Below are positions 37,951 through 50,489 of a stretch of DNA of 57,715 bases, piece by piece. The first letter of the stretch is position 1. Every line of letters starts with the position of its first letter. The notes beneath the pieces are model-generated. The model made no database searches. It was not told the DNA's origin and saw only the letters and a list, made by a program, of their open reading frames with translations. This DNA is from Candidatus Elulimicrobium sp. (GTDB lineage Bacteria; Omnitrophota; Gorgyraeia; Zapsychrales; Fredricksoniimonadaceae): assembly GCA_020720365.1 (NCBI GenBank), contig DYOU01000007.1:1-57715 (forward strand). Reading direction: 5' to 3'. Both the position numbers and the translations under genes were made by a program.

Positions 37951-39318
37951 ATGACTAAAAAAACACAAACCTTTTTTCTCACCATTCTTTTATTTTTTAT
38001 ACCGCAGGCATGTTTTGCGGCGATAAGCCTAAGTGTTAATCCTGTTGATGGAAGCAACACCCTGCGTTTCAGGCCTTCTGTAGGCGGCATGGAAGATAGA
38101 AAAGAGATCCGTATTCGAGTTAATTCAACGGGAGGTACTCGTTACCAGGTTTTTCAGCGTTTAATGGAACCTCTGGTGAATGAAAAAGGTGAGACCTTGG
38201 ATATTCAGGTATTACAGACAGCGACAACCGGTAATTCGAATGCTTCCGGAACGCTGTATATGCAAAATATTGATCGGATGAGTATGGGAGAGCAGCTTTT
38301 ATATACATCAGGGCAGAATGGCGACAGTGATTCTTTTACGGTTGCTTATGCGGTTGATGCTGGAGTTGTGGATCGGAGCGGTATTTTTTGTGGTCGGGTT
38401 GTTTTTACGGTGCGGGCTATAGGAGAAGCGTCTCAGGAGCAGACATCGGTTAATATCATGATAGAAACGCTTTCTGTATGGAAAGCCGAGGTGGCCGGCG
38501 GCCGGAATAAGGGGTTGGTTCGGGTAAAAGATACAGATGTGACGGATCAGAGTGCTGATTTTGTTAAAGTATCATTTGCCGGTAGTTCTCATCAGGAAGT
38601 TCGTATTTATCAAGAGGTTTTTTCATTGCCGGAAGATGCTCAGGCCAATGAAATGAAAGAAGATGTTTTAAGGTTTTCAGTTGGAGCCAATGACGAGAAG
38701 GGTGTTCGGGCGGCAGGGGTTTCTTCGTTGGGCAGGGACAGCGTTCTTTTATATGCCGGCCAGGCTCAGGAGAATGATATCATCATCCGGTTCTTTGTGG
38801 ATCCGAAGGTTATTGCCCTTCAGGATGCAGGAACGTATTTTGGTAAGGTTAAGTATATTGTCGAGACCAATGATAAAAGGCAAGAGTTCCAGGTTGACCT
38901 GGAATGTGAGGTTCAGCCTGTTTTTACCGTTGATGTTATCCTGCCTCCGGAAGGCGTAAGTTTTAAAAATATTTTACCGAATGCACCGCCTTCGGAGCAT
39001 GAAGTTGTAGTTACAGTTCGCTCCAATCTTCATCGTCCCTATCAGATCCTGCAGGATATGCAGGCTCCGATGGTGAATGAAAAAGGCGAGGCTTTAAAGA
39101 AAGAATATTTTTCCATGAAAGTCGATCTTTCCGGGATGAAGGGCAAGACAAAGTTCACTGATTTTACGCCGATGGAAACCGGAGAATATACCATTTTCTC
39201 ATCGGATAATCAGGGCACAGCGGGTACCTTCAGGGTGATTTATCAGCTGCAGGGGTACCCTCAGATGAGCGGAGGCAATTATGCGGCTCCGATACGTTTT
39301 TCGTTGAATCAAAACTAG
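37951..39318 (+). CDS. Secreted beta-sandwich protein with duplicated modules (fimbria-like operon)
   Basis: A 455-residue secreted protein with a clear signal peptide (ending FAA-ISL). It is mainly beta in composition. Modules at about 25-165 and 325-455 share matched motifs. RYQVFQRLMEPLVNEKGE corresponds to PYQILQDMQAPMVNEKGE, and the GEQLLYTSGQNGDSDSF region corresponds to GEYTIFSSDNQGTAGTF. The two halves therefore arose by duplication, and a third segment lies between them. I do not recognise a named family. Its place at the head of a chaperone, subunit and usher-like operon suggests a fibre tip, adhesin or anchor protein. No clear ribosome binding site is seen. Confidence 0.65.
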   Translation: MTKKTQTFFLTILLFFIPQACFAAISLSVNPVDGSNTLRFRPSVGGMEDRKEIRIRVNSTGGTRYQVFQRLMEPLVNEKGETLDIQVLQTATTGNSNASGTLYMQNIDRMSMGEQLLYTSGQNGDSDSFTVAYAVDAGVVDRSGIFCGRVVFTVRAIGEASQEQTSVNIMIETLSVWKAEVAGGRNKGLVRVKDTDVTDQSADFVKVSFAGSSHQEVRIYQEVFSLPEDAQANEMKEDVLRFSVGANDEKGVRAAGVSSLGRDSVLLYAGQAQENDIIIRFFVDPKVIALQDAGTYFGKVKYIVETNDKRQEFQVDLECEVQPVFTVDVILPPEGVSFKNILPNAPPSEHEVVVTVRSNLHRPYQILQDMQAPMVNEKGEALKKEYFSMKVDLSGMKGKTKFTDFTPMETGEYTIFSSDNQGTAGTFRVIYQLQGYPQMSGGNYAAPIRFSLNQN

Positions 39319-39343
39319 GTTAAACAAAAAAAAGGAGAGATGC

Positions 39344-39964
39344 ATGAAAACAAGGGCAAGTGTTATGATGGCAGCGGCTATTCTGCTCGCGCAGTCTGGC
39401 TCGTTATGGGCACAAACGGTTTTTACGATCACAGCAGCAGTTCCTGCGGCTACGAGTGTAAGCATCGCAGCATCAAGTATCACAGGAACGACATGGTCGA
39501 CTGCAGGTACAGCTTTAACCTTCGGAACGTTGACGTTTGATTCCAGTATTCCTACGGGATCAACCAAACCGTTGAACATTTGGCGTGCGCCGAATTATTT
39601 TGCTATTGATATTTCCAATAATGGCGGTGGCAGCCCGAGCGCATCTTTTACTTATACGGAAGGGTCCAAACCAACAGGACAGGTGCACGGCTTGGGGTAT
39701 AAAGGTACGATCGACTTCAAGAGGGTTACAATTAATACGGCTGGTGTTACGACTGATAATGTTATCACAGGGCATACCAAAAAAGCGTTGAGGGATATCA
39801 CTGTTACAGAGAGTATTTCTTCTTCTTTGACCGCGGGTGGTTGGTTAAGGGCTTATATTGGTCTTGCGGATGGCGCGACAGGAACTCCTGGTGAGCCTTT
39901 CGGTGCTACAGACTTACAGGGTAACTATACAGGAACATTGACGATCACAGCGACAACGATCTGA
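39344..39964 (+). CDS. Fimbrial-subunit-like secreted protein
   Basis: A 206-residue exported protein: a signal peptide ending in LWA-Q, then TVFTITAAVPAATSVSIAASS. This alternating N-terminal strand resembles the donor strand of chaperone-usher pilins and SCPU-type subunits. The mature part is rich in Thr, Ser and Gly, with little Cys and few charged residues, as expected of a polymerising beta subunit. AAGGAG lies just before the ATG. It lies between the duplicated beta-sandwich gene and the chaperone gene, so it is the likely main subunit. The strand VFNLSVTVPAL in the 76-residue protein on the opposite strand is closely similar. Confidence 0.7.
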   Translation: MKTRASVMMAAAILLAQSGSLWAQTVFTITAAVPAATSVSIAASSITGTTWSTAGTALTFGTLTFDSSIPTGSTKPLNIWRAPNYFAIDISNNGGGSPSASFTYTEGSKPTGQVHGLGYKGTIDFKRVTINTAGVTTDNVITGHTKKALRDITVTESISSSLTAGGWLRAYIGLADGATGTPGEPFGATDLQGNYTGTLTITATTI

Positions 39965-39989
39965 TTATTAATGAATATTTGATGCTGAT

Positions 39990-40790
39990 ATGAGAAAACA
40001 AATAATATTTATTATGTTTTTTTGCATCGTCCTTGCCGGACCGGCCATGGCCCAATTCTTCATAGAAGAAGGAAAGGTTGTCTTGTCCGTGTCCGGCGGG
40101 GAACGCATCAATAAATCAGTTATTATTAATAATACAACAGCCAATGATCTGGATGTGCGCGTTTATTGGGAAGATTTTCAGTATGAACCGCCTTATGATG
40201 GCTCAAAGAAGTTCTTTCCTGCCGGGACAATAGAGGGCTCTGCCAGCAGCTGGATCCAGTATGTCCCGCAAGAGTTCAGATTGCCAGCTTTTGGCAAACA
40301 AAAGATTGATTATACACTGAGTGTACCGGATGATATTCAAGGAGGGCATTATGGTGTGCTTTTCTTTGAACGTTTGGGAGATGCGGCTGAAGGCCGTGCC
40401 GCTGTCAAGATCGTAACACGCCTAGGTTGTTTGTTCTTTATTGAAGCCAAAGACAAGACCAAGAGTGCGGAGCTGCAAAACATTAAATTTGAAGGTAATG
40501 ACCTTACAGGATCTTTCGCGAATAACAGTAATGTGGTGTTGATACCTCATACGACATATTACATTATGGATGAAAGCGGACTTGTCGCTGATCGCGGAGA
40601 AGTGGCGAAACTTTATGTTACGCCTGGAGCGGTAGCCTTCTGGAGGGTTTCATTGCCGAAGGATCTGGCCGCAGGGCGATATACATTTTTCCTGAACGCA
40701 GATCTTGAAGATGGAGATCTGGTGGTCAAAGAGATCACCTTTCAAAAAGATTTATCCGGAGGCCTGGTGGTCGAAAAAGTGCAGGATTAA
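39990..40790 (+). CDS. PapD-like periplasmic chaperone
   Basis: A 266-residue exported protein with a signal peptide (ends AMA-Q). The first Ig-like domain has GGERINKSVIINNTTANDLDVRVYWEDF, and RLPAFGKQKIDYTLSVPDDIQGGHYGVLFFE is the matching second half. A second beta domain ends in DGDLVVKEITFQKD. This is the fold and size of fimbrial chaperones, which give a strand to subunits before export. It lacks the conserved Arg-Lys pair in an obvious place, so it belongs to a divergent group. It sits between the subunit gene and the usher-like gene. Confidence 0.7.
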   Translation: MRKQIIFIMFFCIVLAGPAMAQFFIEEGKVVLSVSGGERINKSVIINNTTANDLDVRVYWEDFQYEPPYDGSKKFFPAGTIEGSASSWIQYVPQEFRLPAFGKQKIDYTLSVPDDIQGGHYGVLFFERLGDAAEGRAAVKIVTRLGCLFFIEAKDKTKSAELQNIKFEGNDLTGSFANNSNVVLIPHTTYYIMDESGLVADRGEVAKLYVTPGAVAFWRVSLPKDLAAGRYTFFLNADLEDGDLVVKEITFQKDLSGGLVVEKVQD

Positions 40791-40831
40791 CCTTTGCATA
40801 ACCATCAATCCCGCTGACCGGACAACAGCTT

Positions 40832-43681
40832 ATGATCTTAAGACGAGCGTTATGTTTAATGATGGCGGCCTTTTTGATGTTATGGGCCTTTCCCTCTTTC
40901 GCTGAAGATCCGTATCTTTCCTATGAACAGTATTTGAATGAGGGTGTTCAAGCTTTTAAGAATCGCGATGATCAGGCTGCCTTGGATTATTTCCATCGGG
41001 CGCATCTTTTATATCCTTCAGCAGAAGAGCCGCTGCAATATATTAATCTGATCAAGCGTACTCAGGATGAACGGCTTCAGGTAATGGGTGTTCCTTTAGA
41101 GCCCGATCATCCAGAGGCGCGAGAAAAAGTTATCCAGGCGACTCTTGATCAGTTTGTCGGCCGTGCTCAGAAGCCATTAGCCATAACGCAACAACCTCTC
41201 CTTGAGAAAAAAGTAGAGCAGCCATTGCCTGCCAGGAAAGTGACAGCTTTGCCTGCTCTTTCCGCAACACAGGTAGTCAGTCATTCTTCTGCTATAAGAA
41301 AAACGAATGATGTGCTTTCATTGGATGATGTCGTGGCCTCCAGCCAGGACAGACCGTCGATCCGTATTGTTTTTGGTTCTTCGGTTATTGTAGAGGGAAG
41401 GAATCTGCAGCGGTTTCTGGCTGTTAATCCTGAGGCACTGAATGTTAAGCCGGCAGGGAGGGATCAGATCATTATTGAGGCTAAACATTGGGGAAGCTCA
41501 TTCTTACATATTTGGGATGAACGTGGGCGTACGACGGTGTATGTTGAGGTGATGCTTCCGGCGGCATCGAATGAATTTGTTTCTGCACAATCAGCTGCTG
41601 TGGAACATGCGCCTCCATTTCGTATGAATTATGCGTTGGATAACAGCTCTTTTTATTATGGACCGGATCTGGGTGGATTACGCCGCAGGAGTTTGAATGT
41701 TCAGGAAACGTTTGGACTGACAGGGGAGACGCCATACGGCCTTTTGGATACGTCTTTAGTTGCGACCGGATTTAATCCGGTCCTTGAGATCCCCAATTAT
41801 ACATTGGGGCTTTCGCATGTTCCGATGCCGGGGACGAGCGACCTTAATCTTCGGGTGTTTGACGGGTATCGATTCTTGTCGCCGTTGACGATGGTGGGGA
41901 CACGTTTGAAAGGAGCTTTTGCGGATGTTGTTTCTTTGAATAATATTCTGGCTGTTTCAGTCAGTCATGGGGCGCAAATGGGGTCTTTTAATTATTTACC
42001 AGGCGGCGGGTCGACAACAAAAGATTCGTTTATTGATGCGGTGCGAGTTTCACTTTTTCCGGGCAATACGACGCATGAATATTCGATCAATTTTGCGCAA
42101 GGCAGCGGCAGTGAGCGTGATGAATATTTAACAAAGAAGGTGTATTCGATCGAGGGCAGGCAGAAGTTGGGGCCTGTTGATCTGAATGCTGAGCTGGCTC
42201 GGGATGATGAGAATACTGCTTCATTGGCAGGAGCCCAATGGTTGAATGGGGCGCTCAGGCAGCGGTTGAGCTTCAGGGAGATCAACAAGGATTTTACAAC
42301 GATCGTTTCGTCTCCGTCTAATCAAGGTGAGATCGGTGGTACCTGGACGACGAGTGGAGAGTGGGACAGGCTTTCCATGGATACGTATGTTGATGTATAT
42401 AAAGACAGAATATTCCCCAATGAACAGGATCCTGAGGCGTTAAATCTTGATTCGAATGTTCATACACGGATACCATTTGGAGAAAAATATGCGGTTGATG
42501 CGGCGGTGCGGTACGTACATACGCCAGGAGAAATGTCACCGAGAAGATATGCGAGCGTTGATGGCCGTTTGACACGAGAGCTTCCGGTATGGGGAGGTCG
42601 TAAGGGAAGTGTTTATGTAGGGGGAGTGGATCAGCGAAGCCGGTTTTCGTTTGCCTCGGAATCAGAATACGACCGCGAAGCTGTTTCGGCGGGAGTTCAG
42701 GTGCCGTTGACGAGATCATTATCTGGTTATTTAAATTATGAATATTCATGGCTGCATGAAAAGTTTTCGCTTGAGGATTACAATCCTTCGGTGATGAATG
42801 CGGGGTTATCTTACAGTAAGCAGCTGACCAACAAGCTTTCAGGAAATTTAGGCTTAATGTATCGTGATGAAGAGAATGTTGAGGGGCGTAATAGTTTTTT
42901 GGCCGGGGAGGACAGTGTATCAGCCTCTGCCGGGCTATCGTATAATCCCAAGACCGATGTGAATTTTTTCTGTGATTCGCGTTTAAGGAATGTCCTGGCG
43001 CAAATTCCCGATAATCCTTCTTATAATGACCTGGATGTCCGTTTTGGTATGCGGATGGCATTCGGATTGGGCTTTTCACTGGATTCTGAAGGTATTGTGA
43101 CGGGTTTTGTCTTTAAGGATCGGGATGGGAATAAGAAATTTGATCCACAGGACACGAATGTTTTGGGAGATGAGGGGCTTGCAGGGATCAAGGTCAAGAT
43201 CGGCGATAAAGAGGCGGTGACCGATGAACGCGGTTGGTATCGACTGGCGATCCGCGGTAAAAAAGTTATCGTTACACCGGTGCTCGAGAGTTTACCGACA
43301 GGGTTTGTTTTTTCAACGCCAAGTTTCGCGAAATTGGAGCTTCGTCAGGGGCAGACCAGCCGGGTAGATTTTGGCTTAACGAGTCAATCGGGTGTGTATG
43401 GCGTGGCGTTCGTGGATCGAAATGGAAACGGAATCCCTGATCAGGGTGATCGTTTTGTGAGCCGGGTGAAAGTTCTTTTAGATGGGAAAGGGGCTCAGGT
43501 CACCGATGGCCGTGGAGCGTATTTCTTCAAGAATATCGCCAAGGGCAAGCACACGTTAACGATCGATATGAAAGATCTTCCAGCTGAGTTTATTCCGCTT
43601 GTAAAATTAAAGAATTCTGTGGATGTAGTTGAAGGAACGACCTATGTTTTTCATATTCCGTTGAAAGCCAAGGCGGAATAA
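40832..43681 (+). CDS. Usher-like outer-membrane protein with TPR, pilus N-domain and SdrD-B-like modules
   Basis: A 949-residue exported protein. After the signal peptide (to about 24, SFA-EDP) come a TPR pair (about 30-75) and a Pro-rich linker. A domain at about 173-245 (SIRIVFGSSVIVEGRNLQRFLAVNPEALNVKP) matches the N-terminal domain of pilus/secretin proteins such as CpaC. A long beta-rich region of aromatic strands follows (about 255-745), the likely barrel. Two SdrD-B-like modules begin at about 757 and 854, with calcium-style loops (DRDGNKKFD, DRNGNGIPD). A PapC-type plug is not evident. Together with the subunit and chaperone this is most simply an unusual usher. Confidence 0.65.
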   Translation: MILRRALCLMMAAFLMLWAFPSFAEDPYLSYEQYLNEGVQAFKNRDDQAALDYFHRAHLLYPSAEEPLQYINLIKRTQDERLQVMGVPLEPDHPEAREKVIQATLDQFVGRAQKPLAITQQPLLEKKVEQPLPARKVTALPALSATQVVSHSSAIRKTNDVLSLDDVVASSQDRPSIRIVFGSSVIVEGRNLQRFLAVNPEALNVKPAGRDQIIIEAKHWGSSFLHIWDERGRTTVYVEVMLPAASNEFVSAQSAAVEHAPPFRMNYALDNSSFYYGPDLGGLRRRSLNVQETFGLTGETPYGLLDTSLVATGFNPVLEIPNYTLGLSHVPMPGTSDLNLRVFDGYRFLSPLTMVGTRLKGAFADVVSLNNILAVSVSHGAQMGSFNYLPGGGSTTKDSFIDAVRVSLFPGNTTHEYSINFAQGSGSERDEYLTKKVYSIEGRQKLGPVDLNAELARDDENTASLAGAQWLNGALRQRLSFREINKDFTTIVSSPSNQGEIGGTWTTSGEWDRLSMDTYVDVYKDRIFPNEQDPEALNLDSNVHTRIPFGEKYAVDAAVRYVHTPGEMSPRRYASVDGRLTRELPVWGGRKGSVYVGGVDQRSRFSFASESEYDREAVSAGVQVPLTRSLSGYLNYEYSWLHEKFSLEDYNPSVMNAGLSYSKQLTNKLSGNLGLMYRDEENVEGRNSFLAGEDSVSASAGLSYNPKTDVNFFCDSRLRNVLAQIPDNPSYNDLDVRFGMRMAFGLGFSLDSEGIVTGFVFKDRDGNKKFDPQDTNVLGDEGLAGIKVKIGDKEAVTDERGWYRLAIRGKKVIVTPVLESLPTGFVFSTPSFAKLELRQGQTSRVDFGLTSQSGVYGVAFVDRNGNGIPDQGDRFVSRVKVLLDGKGAQVTDGRGAYFFKNIAKGKHTLTIDMKDLPAEFIPLVKLKNSVDVVEGTTYVFHIPLKAKAE

Positions 43682-43686
43682 TCGTT

Positions 43687-43917
43687 TTATAAAACCACAA
43701 TAGATCTTACTGTAACCACTTCCTGATTGCGGACCATCTGCTGCTCCTGGACTATTCCTGATTCATTGAATACTTGCTGGTTTTGATCTGCCGCAGGCAT
43801 TTGAATTAAAGCAGGAACGGTAACCGATAAATTGAAGACCATGGATTCAGCCCAGGCAGAGCCCGCTTGTGCCAAGATGAGAACAGTCAGGATTGTTAAT
43901 GTCAGATGTTTTTTCAT
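43687..43917 (-). CDS. 76-residue secreted mini-subunit under c-di-GMP riboswitch control
   Basis: The only - strand gene. The signal peptide (MKKHLTLTILTVLILAQAGSAWA) leads to a mature chain of about 53 residues that starts ESMVFNLSVTVPAL, like the N-terminal strand of the subunit encoded at 39344. The remainder is Gln/Val rich and too short for a complete subunit. It could end, cap or initiate the fibre. Start: AAGGGGGCG is six bases before the ATG. Its stop lies five bases from the stop of the usher-like gene, so the two converge. A promoter, a c-di-GMP aptamer and a terminator precede it. Confidence 0.7.
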   Translation of the reverse strand: MKKHLTLTILTVLILAQAGSAWAESMVFNLSVTVPALIQMPAADQNQQVFNESGIVQEQQMVRNQEVVTVRSIVVL

Positions 43918-43967
43918 TGTCGCCCCCTTGTTTAAGGTAAGACGACTTGAAAGAGATGGAAGGACAC

Positions 43968-43997
43968 AAAAAAGAAAGCTAGCGTGCGGTTAGCTTC
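43968..43997 (-). terminator. Riboswitch-linked intrinsic terminator
   Basis: On the - strand AAGCTA and TAGCTT form a stem with a nine-base loop, followed by TCTTTTTT. It lies between the aptamer and the start codon. The 5' arm overlaps a possible antiterminator in which GGTTGC (the aptamer 3' end) pairs with GCTAACC. Confidence 0.7.
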
Positions 43998-44080
43998 GGC
44001 AACCTGACGACCATTCCCTTATCATAATGATAAGGGGTTAGGCTCACGGCTTTGCGTCCTACTCTTTCAAGTAGTTTGCC
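43998..44080 (-). promoter_or_regulatory. Class I c-di-GMP (GEMM) riboswitch aptamer
   Basis: Read on the - strand, the segment runs GGCAAAC, then a hairpin CTACTT-GAAA-GAGTAG, then GACGCAAAGCC, GCCTAA, a hairpin CCCTTATCAT/ATGATAAGGG, ATGG and finally GGTTGCC. This order follows the class I c-di-GMP aptamer. GGCAA and TTGCC close stem P1; the GAAA loop and the CCUAA...AUGG element look like the tetraloop and its receptor; GACGCAAAGCC is the most conserved core. The downstream arrangement suggests ligand binding frees the terminator and turns expression off. The aptamer identity rests on pattern matching by eye. Confidence 0.85.
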
Positions 44081-44119
44081 TTTTTCGACTATAAAGAACA
44101 ATTTCCTTCCCCGATTTAA

Positions 44120-44149
44120 AGCATAACATATTCCGGTTCGCATTGCCAA
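44120..44149 (-). promoter_or_regulatory. Promoter of the riboswitch transcript
   Basis: On the - strand TTGGCA and TATGCT are 18 bases apart. Transcription would begin near 44113, about 33 bases before the aptamer. Between 44150 and 44318 on the + strand I see a CCTTAA/TTAAGG hairpin (44258-44275) ahead of prfC but no sure promoter. Confidence 0.55.
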
Positions 44150-46094: not shown

Positions 46095-47018
46095 ATGAGC
46101 TCTGAGCATCGTTCCAACATTCTTCTTGAAGCTCAAACCAGTGAGCTGGAGATCGTTGAATTCTCTGTAGGGGAAGCGGTGTACGGTATTAATGTGGCCA
46201 AGGTGAAAGAGATCATTAAGGCCAGTTTAACGCTTGTTCAGGTGCCTGATGCTCATCCGTCGATTGCGGGTGCCATTAATTTGCGCGGTGCTATTATTCC
46301 AGTTGTAGACCTGTCCCATCATTTAAAGATAAAAACAATCGCAGACCTTAAAAAGAGCCGGATCATTATTGCCGAGTTTAATCGTATTGTATTGGGATTT
46401 TTAGTGAGCGGTGTGGCCCGAATTCACCGGATCTCTTGGAAATCGGTTGAAGTGCCGTCTCAAATGCTGGTTACAACGGAAGGTTATGCTTCAGGGATTG
46501 TTCGAATTGAAAAGAAAGTTATTTTTCTTCTGGATTTTGAAAAGATTGCATTCCATATTAATCCGAATGTTCATATCCTTTCTCCGAAAGGAGGGGAGTA
46601 TGGCGGGTCTTCTGTTGACCGCGGGTCAAAGCGGATCCTGGTGGTCGATGATTCGGATCTGGTGCGTAAGCTGATCGTGGGGCATTTGAATTCGGCAGGG
46701 TATCAAACGGATACCGCTACAAATGGGGTAGAGGCATTGGATAAACTACAAACCTTCGCCGGACGTTCTGATTTTACGTCGATCGATCAGTTTTATCATT
46801 TGATGGTAACGGATATTGAAATGCCTCAGATGGATGGACTTCATCTGATCAAAAAGGTGAAAGAAGATGTCAAATTGCGAAACTTGCCGTGTATTGCTTT
46901 TTCGTCAATTATGTCGAAAGAAATGATCCGTCAATGTCAGTCTTGTGGAGCTGATGGAGAAATATCCAAGCCTGAGATCGCAGAACTGGTCGGACTTGTG
47001 GATGCGAAGGCGTTATAA
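46095..47018 (+). CDS. cheV: CheV-type coupling protein (CheW + receiver)
   Basis: A 307-residue protein that joins a CheW domain (about 15-160, EFSVGEAVYGINVAKVKEIIKA ... INLRGAIIPVVDLS) to a receiver domain (about 178-300, RILVVDDSDLVRKLIV with VTDIEMPQMDG as the phosphoacceptor site). It couples receptors to CheA and adapts when phosphorylated. It leads an operon of receptor, PilZ and CheW genes. No CheA is present in the window, so the kinase must lie elsewhere. Confidence 0.93.
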   Translation: MSSEHRSNILLEAQTSELEIVEFSVGEAVYGINVAKVKEIIKASLTLVQVPDAHPSIAGAINLRGAIIPVVDLSHHLKIKTIADLKKSRIIIAEFNRIVLGFLVSGVARIHRISWKSVEVPSQMLVTTEGYASGIVRIEKKVIFLLDFEKIAFHINPNVHILSPKGGEYGGSSVDRGSKRILVVDDSDLVRKLIVGHLNSAGYQTDTATNGVEALDKLQTFAGRSDFTSIDQFYHLMVTDIEMPQMDGLHLIKKVKEDVKLRNLPCIAFSSIMSKEMIRQCQSCGADGEISKPEIAELVGLVDAKAL

Positions 47019-47068
47019 ATTTTGCCTCAAATGGATTTTTTTAATAACAGATGAACAGAGGGGGTAGC

Positions 47069-48760
47069 ATGCTGGATAATATTCAAATAGGGGTAAAGCT
47101 TATCGCAGGTTTTTTGTTAGTGGCCTTGATTGCGCTTTGTGTGGGTGTCATCGGTTATTATGGAATGTCCGTTATTTCTAATCAGTTAAAGTTTGTTGGC
47201 ATTGACAAAGTTTCTGACATTGAGGCATTGGGGGATTTGAATGAACAGCAAATGGCAATACGAGTAGGAACATTGAGTGTTTATCAGTATGAATTTAAAG
47301 ACAGCGCTCAGGAAGATTTTCGCAGAATTATCGAGGCTCGTCAGGAGAGTTGGAAGATTGTTGATGATGCCTGGAAGCGGTTGATTGAAGTCCCCAGAGA
47401 CGATCAGAAGGAACGGGATTTGATCCAGCGATTAAAAGGTGAATATGAAGCGTGGCGGGCTGCTTATGTAAGGCTTGACGCGAGTATTCTTGAATTGACA
47501 TCAACCACCGCTGATAATAAAAAGGCTGTTTTTGAGAAATACCGTTTGCAGGTCAAGGAAATGATCCATTTGTCGGAGGCCATGGGGAAGACTTTGGATG
47601 AGGTAACAGTGAATAATGCAGCAGCGACAAAGAATCTGGTTGAAAAAAATCTTGCGGCGATGGTTCGGTTGAAGTTGATTCTTGTGGTTTCCATTATTAT
47701 GGGGCTATTTTTGTCAATTATGTTTGGTTTTTATTTCAGTGGATCTATTACGGGTCCTATGGCTTCGAGCGTGAGGGTGATGGAGTCAATGGCCGGTGGA
47801 GATTTAACGCAGAGGCTGGATATGAATCGTGCGGATGAAATTGGTGTGATGGCAAAAACAATGGATACTTTTTCTGACAAGTTATCCAGTATGATGGGAC
47901 AGATCAGTTTGAATGCGGATCAGCTTTTGGGGGCGACCCATGAAGTATCTTCGAGCTCTCAGCAGATCGCTGACGGGGCTCAACAGCAGTCAGCTTCGTT
48001 TGAAGAGTTGTCTTCTTCAGTACAGGCGAATGCCGAAAATGCCCGGAGTGCGAATGGGATCGCCCAGGACGCGTCCAAGGAAGCTCAGGAAGCGGGTCAG
48101 GCTATGGACAATACAGTAGAGGCTATCAGCGGTATTGAGAAGGGTTCAAAGCAGATGGCAGATGCTGTTGAATTGATCACGGATATCGCGGATCAGACGA
48201 ATCTTTTAGCGTTGAATGCGGCTATTGAAGCGGCGCGTGCCGGTGAGCATGGCAAGGGCTTCGCGGTTGTCGCGGATGAAGTCCGTCAGCTGGCTGAGCG
48301 CAGTTCTACATCGGCTAAAGAGATCCAGAATCTGATCAAGGATAATTTGAGGCAGGTTGAGAATGGTGTCAAGATCTCAAAAGAAGCCGGAGCGAAGACT
48401 AAAAATATTTCTGTCAGTATCAAGAAGATCGCTGAACAGTTGATCGCTGTAGCTAATGCTACTCAGGAGCAGGCCGCGGCCATGGAAGAAAATACATCTA
48501 TTACAGAATCCAACGCGTCTGCCGCTGAACAGCTGGCATCTGCCTCTGAACAGATGACGTCCCAGGCGGAAGGTTTGCGTAACCTTGTAGCGCAGTTCAG
48601 GACCAATTCCTCGGGTGCATCTTTTCATGCGGCTCCGGCGGTTGAAAAACGTACGAGTCATTCGACTCCTGTGAAGAAAACAGCCCCTGTGGTTAAGAAG
48701 AGCGGGAGGCCTATAGAGAGATCGGGTAGTAATAAAGAAGAAGGCTTAAGGATCGGATAA
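47069..48760 (+). CDS. Methyl-accepting chemotaxis protein
   Basis: A transmembrane receptor of about 563 residues. TM1 is near residues 8-30. The periplasmic ligand domain (about 33-195) is four-helix-bundle-like, and TM2 is near 200-225. A HAMP domain and the signalling hairpin follow. The hairpin tip [38 protein letters not shown] is fully conserved. A Lys/Pro/Ser-rich tail ends the protein. The ORF track starts at 47051, but GAGGGGG lies four bases before the ATG at 47069, which opens [15 protein letters not shown]. It follows cheV with a short gap. Confidence 0.95.
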
Positions 48761-48779
48761 TCGTATTGAGGGAGGGAGC

Positions 48780-49169
48780 ATGGAACGTCGTCAATACATG
48801 AGGGTAAGCGGGAAGCATCTGGTGCGGCATGAGCAGTTCACTATCCCGAGGGGTACGGAGGTTCGGGAAAACAGGGCCAAAAATATCAGTGCGAACGGAC
48901 TTTTGTTTGAGTCATCCGTAAAATATAATATGGGTGTTATTCTTCGGCTGGAGCTTCTGGTCATGGGGATTAACAAGTTCAAGACAGAATTCTATAAACA
49001 TGAACGGCTTTCTAATACAGAGCCGTTCATTGTTTTAGGGAAAGTGGTCCGTGTAGAAATGGTCTATGAGGGGCTTTATGATATTGGGGTGAGTTTAGTG
49101 GGATTGGATTATTTATTCCAGAAGGCTCTCACAAAATATATTGATCATCAATTAAATCAGAATCCCTGA
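48780..49169 (+). CDS. PilZ-domain protein of the chemosensory operon
   Basis: A 129-residue PilZ domain: MERRQYMRVSG supplies the RxxxR motif (Arg-4 to Arg-8 region) and NISANGLLFES the (D/N)xSxxG motif. Placing it between the receptor and CheW genes suggests that c-di-GMP tunes this array. The gap to the receptor stop is 19 bases and to the next gene ten bases, so it is in the same operon. Confidence 0.85.
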   Translation: MERRQYMRVSGKHLVRHEQFTIPRGTEVRENRAKNISANGLLFESSVKYNMGVILRLELLVMGINKFKTEFYKHERLSNTEPFIVLGKVVRVEMVYEGLYDIGVSLVGLDYLFQKALTKYIDHQLNQNP

Positions 49170-49179
49170 GGGTTGGTTT

Positions 49180-49983
49180 ATGAGTGAGCAAGCGATAGAC
49201 AAGAAAAATGGGCCGGAAGGCAGCTTTGATCGTGTTATTCAGTTGATCAGCGAGTGTGTTGTGATCAAAGCCCAGTTACAGCAGTTCATGAGTGACCTGG
49301 ATGGGGAGAAACAGAAATCACGCGCAGTCACTTTAAAAATGAACGAGATCGTTCAAGGTCTTCAGAATGTCCAGAAGGGTGTGGATATTCAAAAGATTTT
49401 AGGGCTGGTGCTGAAGGATTCGGAGGGTTTATATGAAGTCCTTCATTCAAGTCGTTTAGGACCGGTGATCGTCTCTATGGATGAAGCTGTGGCCCGCTTC
49501 AGTAAGGTAATGGGGGATCTTCAGCATGAGTTGGTGACTATGGATCTTGGGGCATCGGCTATTTCTATTATGCAGGTGCTTTTGGTCAAGATCGATGGTG
49601 AGATCTATGCTATTCCGATCGAGGCGGTGTTGGAGATATTCAAGGTGAAAAAGAATGATATTCATTCTGTAGACGGAAATGACACGGTTTCCTTGCGCGG
49701 GCATGCGTTGGGTGTGGTAAATGTCGGACAGGTTTTAGGAATGCCGAATGCCAAAACGAAAGACCTGGTAGACCGTAAGGTGGTTGTTATTACGGATTCG
49801 GCACAACAAATCGGTGTGATCGTGGATGAATTGTTGGGAGAGGAAAGTGTGGTCTTCAAGGATCTTCCTGTGCAGTTAAGGGGGATGAAAGGGCTTCGCG
49901 GGGCATCTATTTTAGGCGATGGGCGTGTGGGACTTATCATTGATTCGGCCATGCTGATCAGTATGGCTGGCGGCAAGGAGTGA
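49180..49983 (+). CDS. CheW-domain protein with N-terminal helical region
   Basis: A 267-residue protein. The first about 125 residues are helical and unlike a known domain. The C-terminal half (about 128-262) is a CheW domain, with VLLVKIDGEIYAIPIEAVLEIFKVKK and LRGHALGVVNVGQVLGMP. It ends ...DGRVGLIIDSAMLISMAGG, as in the CheA-type regulatory (P5-like) domain. Its length and N-terminal part set it apart from the two short CheW genes that follow. It may be the anchor for the kinase or a degenerate CheA remnant lacking the kinase domain. Confidence 0.8.
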   Translation: MSEQAIDKKNGPEGSFDRVIQLISECVVIKAQLQQFMSDLDGEKQKSRAVTLKMNEIVQGLQNVQKGVDIQKILGLVLKDSEGLYEVLHSSRLGPVIVSMDEAVARFSKVMGDLQHELVTMDLGASAISIMQVLLVKIDGEIYAIPIEAVLEIFKVKKNDIHSVDGNDTVSLRGHALGVVNVGQVLGMPNAKTKDLVDRKVVVITDSAQQIGVIVDELLGEESVVFKDLPVQLRGMKGLRGASILGDGRVGLIIDSAMLISMAGGKE

Positions 49984-49985
49984 CC

Positions 49986-50489
49986 ATGGCGACAGGTATA
50001 TCAGGGGTCTCAAAAGAGAATTCGATCGAGATTGTTCAGTTCGTTTGCTTTAAATTGGCGAATGAGGAATACGGGATCGATATTAACTGTGTGCAGGAAG
50101 TCCTTCGGCCGCAACAGATCACGCCTATGCCGCAAATGCCGGATTTTGTTTTAGGTGTGATGAACATTCGAGGGATCGTTGTGCCGGTATTTGATCTGCG
50201 TAGAAAATTGCATCTGGCGATGAAAGAGCTGGATGATTACAGCCGGATCATCCTGATCCAGTTAAACGGGGTCATGGGCAGTTATCTGGTTGATGAAGTG
50301 CTGGACAACATCAAGCTGGATGGATCCAAGATCGATCCAACGCCGGATGTTAAAATGTCGATCGCCAGGGATTGTGTGCGCGGGCTGGGAATGGTGGATA
50401 AACGTATCATTGTGATCATTGATCATCAGACAGTTGATGCATCTATATTAAAAGATATTCAGGAAAAACTGGTTTCTAAGCGGGGATGA
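49986..50489 (+). CDS. cheW: CheW coupling protein
   Basis: A 167-residue CheW domain protein: VQFVCFKLANEEYGIDINCVQEVL and LGVMNIRGIVVPVFDLRRKL are standard. It bridges receptors and CheA. The ATG at 49986 is preceded by AAGGAG with five bases of spacing and overlaps the end of the previous gene region; the ORF track uses a GTG six bases earlier. Confidence 0.92.
   Translation: MATGISGVSKENSIEIVQFVCFKLANEEYGIDINCVQEVLRPQQITPMPQMPDFVLGVMNIRGIVVPVFDLRRKLHLAMKELDDYSRIILIQLNGVMGSYLVDEVLDNIKLDGSKIDPTPDVKMSIARDCVRGLGMVDKRIIVIIDHQTVDASILKDIQEKLVSKRG

Follow-up and report, generated by a model that had tools for sequence, protein, structure and literature searches.

Related systems and the locus under study

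The c-di-GMP-I riboswitch Cd1 of the C. difficile flagellar operon is a transcriptional OFF switch, in which the antiterminator uses an aptamer strand at the expense of ligand binding (PMC9262584). The c-di-GMP-I riboswitch Bc1 of Bacillus thuringiensis has a long expression platform, and both transcription and translation are affected (PMC11218506). Some riboswitches act in antisense, such as the SAM riboswitch at ubiG-mccB-mccA and the cobalamin riboswitch at pocR (PMC9943018).

The window is the whole 57,715-nt stretch analysed here (contig DYOU01000007.1, assembly GCA_020720365.1, Candidatus Elulimicrobium sp., Omnitrophota). Its c-di-GMP riboswitch is placed at a pilus locus, and very few members of this phylum have been cultured. 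It shares with Cd1 the aptamer class and a predicted OFF mode in which an alternative structure recruits an aptamer strand. Unlike in Cd1, this strand consists of P2' and the conserved core GGACGCAAAG, the controlled gene (s76) encodes a pilin-like mini-protein, and members of the window's family use masking of the Shine-Dalgarno (SD) sequence. The likeness to Bc1 is a long platform with predicted dual control; the differences are the two terminators, the other host and the other gene of Bc1. As with the antisense-acting riboswitches, the element lies on the strand opposite a neighbouring operon, but in the window the conserved sense gene s76 lies between the two. A limited literature search, which is weak evidence, found no paper describing this Omnitrophota module.

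Identity of the aptamer

The sequence-only reading had proposed a GEMM-I aptamer on the - strand, and every one of the ordered conserved pieces was found there. The Infernal search it suggested, with the Rfam model RF01051, bore this out: the match at 44090–43995 (-) scored 78.6 bits (E 8e-14; gathering score 35). It spans positions 1–87 of the 87-position model, is not truncated, and is the sole gathering-level Rfam match within the window (cmscan).

G20 together with C92 marks the c-di-GMP type of this fold, and A20 the cGAMP-type GEMM-Ib. Position 20 of the aptamer is G (44080, -, within AAAGGCAAAC) and position 92 is C, within GGTTGCC. Both residues agree with the c-di-GMP class that had been claimed. 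A specificity for cGAMP was rejected because position 20 is G. The P2 GAAA tetraloop, which docks in a receptor in the c-di-GMP-I class, is present as CTACTTGAAAGAGTAG and was aligned with high posterior. Four GGDEF matches were found in the organism's own genome. Judged by its sequence, the element is a genuine class I c-di-GMP-sensing RNA switch, predicted to bind its ligand, and an ordinary member of the known class.

Many genomes of the order carry RF01051 matches: 48 of 55 had at least one over the cut-off, with up to 14 per genome. The window's own genome carries a second, weaker GEMM-I match (L002, G000:C53:10719-10791; 38.1 bits).

The anti-aptamer strand

According to folding, the dominant alternative structure in the window leader is an anti-aptamer formed by the strand TTTTGTGTCCTTCCATCTCTTTCAAGTCGTC (43971–43941, -). 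This strand pairs with the P2'/core strand of the aptamer, ACTACTTGAAAGAGTAGGACGCAAAG (44050–44075, -), with a duplex energy of −27.8 kcal/mol, compared with −14.0 ± 2.6 kcal/mol for shuffled sequences. For the window, none of 500 dinucleotide shuffles gave an equally good duplex. When the full leader was folded without constraint, the ensemble, which contains the anti-aptamer, was 4.5 kcal/mol better than the one with the aptamer forced.

The complementarity extends to related leaders. Among the 29 that were long enough, the duplex energy beat the shuffles at p ≤ 0.05 in 21, and eight showed no significant complementarity. Native pairs of core and leader were better than permuted pairs (p = 5e-5, 27 leaders) in a permutation that treats the leaders without correction for relatedness. 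Split by group, and equally uncorrected, p was 4.5e-4 within the window's family (f1) and 1.1e-3 in the other families. The two strands change together between species: GAAAAAG is found with CTTTTTC (G030), CCTCGAAAGAG with CTCTTTCGGGG (G013) and CTACTTC with GAAGTAG (G044).

Terminator and alternative pairing

A weak intrinsic terminator with the stem AAGCTA/TAGCTT and a T-tract lies at 43968–43997 (-). Its arms are 43996–43991 and 43981–43976, followed by TTCTTTTTT to 43968. The terminator that the sequence-only reading had placed directly after the aptamer is thus present as a terminator-like hairpin with a U-tract, but it is weak (−4.9 kcal/mol). It was found by eye and by folding; a simple terminator scan does not return it, and a terminator finder misses it because the 5' arm falls inside the aptamer match. 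Within f1, a terminator directly 3' of the aptamer occurs only in the window and in G002, a member of the same genus.

Whole-leader equilibrium folds blend the stages of transcription and discriminate poorly, so prefix folds were used. The leader could be a purely transcriptional OFF switch, with pairing of GGTTGC to GCTAACC (43988–44004, -) serving as antiterminator in the ligand-free state. This pairing had also been put forward by the sequence-only reading as the one that disrupts the terminator. The hairpin exists (−3.5 kcal/mol), and its population was 0.38 just before the 3' arm of the terminator is complete. AACC is found 3' of the aptamer in several relatives, and the terminator probability rises when the aptamer is forced, from about 0.66–0.85 in the free leader to only 0.92–0.98. 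However, by the time the U-tract is made, the pairing has fallen to 0.02–0.11, and the terminator stands without ligand at 0.94 at the completed stem and about 0.8 at the U-tract; these are equilibrium values, which take in neither tertiary structure nor kinetics. Moreover, no f1 member besides the window and G002 has a terminator at this place, and in G002 the aptamer is followed by GTCCCAAGCC, which lacks GCTAACC; most relatives lack a U-tract at the corresponding hairpin. The proposed pairing exists but is at best weakly supported as the switch, and we consider a purely transcriptional switch of this kind improbable. GGTTGC/GCTAACC reaches about 0.75 only once the anti-aptamer strand has been transcribed, and belongs to the anti-aptamer state. 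In the unconstrained ensemble of the full leader, the terminator probability drops to 0.2.

The anti-aptamer strand of the window overlaps and follows the U-tract; it can therefore not act on the termination decision itself.

Predicted masking of the start codon

The SD sequence of s76 (AAGGGGG) is sequestered in a hairpin at 43919–43946 (-), with a folding energy of −10.8 kcal/mol, which formed in both folds of the window. When the aptamer was forced, UUUCA in the anti-aptamer strand became free and lengthened this hairpin over the AUG, and the energy improved to −14.6 kcal/mol. The corresponding hairpin over SD and AUG in G002 has −18.0 kcal/mol. In the folds, the core bases of the window SD had an unpaired probability of 0–0.28 and were buried in both states; the AUG was masked mainly with the aptamer forced. 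With the SD buried in both states, it is uncertain how much translation the ON state would allow. The folds thus lead us to expect partial termination combined with start-codon masking in the window, both in the OFF direction, with an uncertain ON level. The anti-aptamer strand (43971–43941), the hairpin over SD and start codon, the boxA-like element described below and the restriction of the terminator to the genus had been missed by the sequence-only reading.

Proposed mechanism

We conclude that this class I riboswitch probably represses s76 at high c-di-GMP via the anti-aptamer strand. The comparison of leaders indicates that the signal would turn s76 off mainly through this strand, rather than through the GGTTGC/GCTAACC pairing. 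The aptamer identity, the complementarity, its co-variation between species, the conservation of the gene and the convergent arrangement were computed. We infer ligand binding, the direction of the response and the split between transcription and translation.

RNA polymerase would start near 44113 and transcribe the boxA-like sequence, followed by the aptamer. Binding of c-di-GMP would keep P2, P3 and the core folded and would favour the weak terminator at 43997–43968. In transcripts that read through, CUCUUUCAAG would be unable to invade the aptamer and would lengthen the SD hairpin over the AUG, leaving s76 off. In the ligand-free RNA, the strand UUUUGUGUCC...CUCUUUCAAGU from farther downstream would pair with GAAAGAG/GGACGCAAA of the aptamer. 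This pairing would break up the terminator hairpin as well as the aptamer and uncover the start codon.

The opposite direction would require that c-di-GMP opens the SD, or that the aptamer itself serves as an antiterminator. ON switches with a GEMM fold do exist, for example the pilM riboswitch, which senses cGAMP (PMC9262584). In the present leaders, however, anti-aptamer and aptamer are predicted to exclude each other, so that only formation of the aptamer releases the arm for the terminator or the anti-SD; we regard an ON switch as very unlikely.

Expression platforms in related leaders

Of 18 leaders outside f1, 16 have a canonical terminator that overlaps the anti-aptamer strand. Until the 3' arm of this terminator has been transcribed, its 5' arm was predicted to pair with the aptamer, with a mean probability of 0.25–1.0 (>0.7 in ten leaders). 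Most f1 leaders have no U-tract, and there the anti-aptamer strand overlaps the best anti-SD. Whole-leader equilibrium folds of many relatives gave no clear difference at the SD between the two states.

The anti-aptamer would accordingly be wired in two ways, as an antiterminator in related families and to the anti-SD in the window's own family. If the aptamer forms, the strand is free and the terminator or the SD mask forms; hence, both platforms predict OFF. The two different platforms agree with the earlier prediction that the ligand turns the gene off. They make up a natural series in which one switching strand leads to a terminator in some families and to masking of the ribosome-binding site in another, a comparative case for platform change.

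In four f1 leaders (G008, G023, G031b and G024; L075, L079, L085 and L086), the spacing from aptamer to ATG is only 9–11 nt. These leaders must have a different, direct mode of control.

Promoter-like site and boxA-like element

A promoter-like site lies at 44120–44149 (-), with a −35 element TTGGCA (44149–44144) and an extended −10 element TG-TATGCT (44128–44120). The interval of the sequence-only reading extended up to 44149, which is the first base of this −35 element; the aptamer begins only at 44090. A TGxTATACT block is also found upstream of the aptamers in most relatives.

Directly before the aptamer lies the element GTTCTTTA (44092–44099, -), which contains a GYTCTTT motif shared with related leaders. 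The motif occurs at −16 to −23 from the GGCAAAC of the aptamer in 24 of 33 related leaders, where the window's own frequency gives an expectation of 0.0036 per 8-nt stretch. Among 20 further GEMM-I leaders from the order, four also have it, but farther upstream. The sequence GTTCTTTGACAAT, with the same core, is present in the 16S rRNA leaders of f1 (five of the five readable ones). The gamma-proteobacterial boxA consensus is GYTCTTTAANA (PMC5725501). The window sequence GTTCTTTATAG agrees with it over the core GYTCTTTA only, and the 3' part differs. The element is boxA-like, with a core that agrees both with the consensus and with the rRNA boxA of its own clade; binding of NusB/NusE is putative.

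Pairing of the upstream GYUCUUU with GAAAGAG of the aptamer was considered as an alternative and rejected: the box is constant where P2' varies (GAAAAAG in G030, GAAAGGG in G059, GAAAGCG in G074). A boxA is preferred because the downstream anti-strand changes with P2', and the box does not. It may act in antitermination across the long untranslated leader, or in translational repression by Nus factors as in suhB. In the described system, a boxA outside rRNA likewise lies upstream of a regulated gene (PMC5725501). The window differs from it in that the boxA-like element precedes a riboswitch, in Omnitrophota, and its function is putative.

The s76 gene and the convergent operon

The gene behind the leader, s76 (43687–43917, -), encodes a 76-aa protein with a signal-peptide-like start and a pilin-like N-strand, VFNLSVTVPA. 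A search of 55 genomes gave matches at E ≤ 0.01 in 13, counting the window's own genome, and most of the matches listed lie directly downstream of an RF01051 match. No Pfam family scored above the cut-offs for s76. The proteins of this family are short; they begin like a signal peptide, and an SFxxSVTIP strand and a C-terminal strand are conserved among them. On the strength of this conservation, we take the ORF to be a real protein-coding gene. In a profile comparison (hhalign), s76 matched the N-terminal part of the pilin-like protein of 206 aa encoded next to it (E 5.5e-7), a score that comes in part from the signal peptide; a kinship between the two is suggestive only. In the pilus, s76 could serve as an accessory subunit or as a cap.

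On the opposite strand, an operon at 37951–43681 (+) is conserved in the window's family. It encodes a secreted protein of 455 aa (37951–39318, +) conserved in the operon, the 206-aa pilin-like subunit (39344–39964, +; conserved operon position, N- and C-terminal strands), a two-Ig chaperone like PapD, CfaA and WxLIP (39990–40790, +) and an usher-like outer-membrane beta-barrel protein (40832–43681, +). The AlphaFold model of the chaperone has a pLDDT of 89, with Foldseek matches to WxLIP, CfaA, Caf1M and FimC. The usher-like protein has Pfam SdrD_B and pilus-formation N-terminal domains; its best Foldseek matches are FimD/PapC ushers (E 1.5e-18), with TM-scores of 0.26–0.38 and a model pTM of 0.47. 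Neither protein gave a sequence match in the PDB or in Pfam chaperone/usher families, and the chaperone stayed below the Pfam cut-offs. The operon is predicted to encode a chaperone-usher-like pilus at the level of fold only, from a PapD-like two-Ig chaperone and an usher beta-barrel. The predicted folds are alike to those of FimD/PapC-FimC/CfaA pili; the differences are the missing sequence match, the low TM-scores and, in the window usher, N-terminal TPR-like helices and a pilus-formation domain.

A CheW-response-regulator gene, an MCP gene and two further CheW-domain genes adjoin the pilus locus (46095–50489, +).

The s76 and usher-like genes are arranged tail-to-tail, with a gap of 5 nt in the window. 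Across loci, the median stop-to-stop gap is 8 nt, and the genes overlap in 6 of 35. The combination of aptamer and downstream 76-aa gene is conserved across the order: at 33 of 43 usher 3'-end loci, the strand opposite the usher carries a GEMM-I-type aptamer 5' of where s76 lies, and in all of these loci it points at the usher 3' end.

With such small gaps and overlaps, and no convincing terminator 3' of s76 in the window, the switch could instead work in antisense. Read-through from s76 into the usher gene would repress the pilus operon at low c-di-GMP, and high c-di-GMP would stop the read-through transcript and release the pilus. High c-di-GMP generally favours adhesion, which fits. Riboswitches that act in antisense have been described, with an enrichment of the c-di-GMP type (PMC9943018). 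Against this, s76 is conserved as a protein-coding gene, which makes s76 itself the simple target, and G019 retains s76 with no riboswitch detected. We consider antisense action unlikely, and it is compatible with repression of s76 via the anti-aptamer strand.

Repression of s76 could also be part of a larger, Omnitrophota-specific module of promoter, boxA, GEMM-I aptamer and an anti-aptamer wired to terminator or SD according to family. This module would control a mini-pilin-like protein that, together with the 3'-overlapping transcript, restrains or caps the convergent pilus; high c-di-GMP would lift the restraint and permit piliation. We offer this as a tentative and rather doubtful proposal. 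Heterologous reporters would give direct access to two features of the locus, the boxA-like element that precedes a riboswitch and the close tail-to-tail placement of s76 and the pilus genes.

Variant aptamers and leaders

In many leaders outside the genus (e.g. L068, L096 and L099), the aptamer is immediately followed by a conserved hairpin and then by CCGTTAA or CCGTCAA. Position 20 of the aptamer is A in G023 and G071 and C in G061 (L079, L094 and L103); the ligand specificity of these three may differ from c-di-GMP. In the aptamer of G064 (L100 1485–1619), a long hairpin is inserted between the P2 region and ACAAAGCC.
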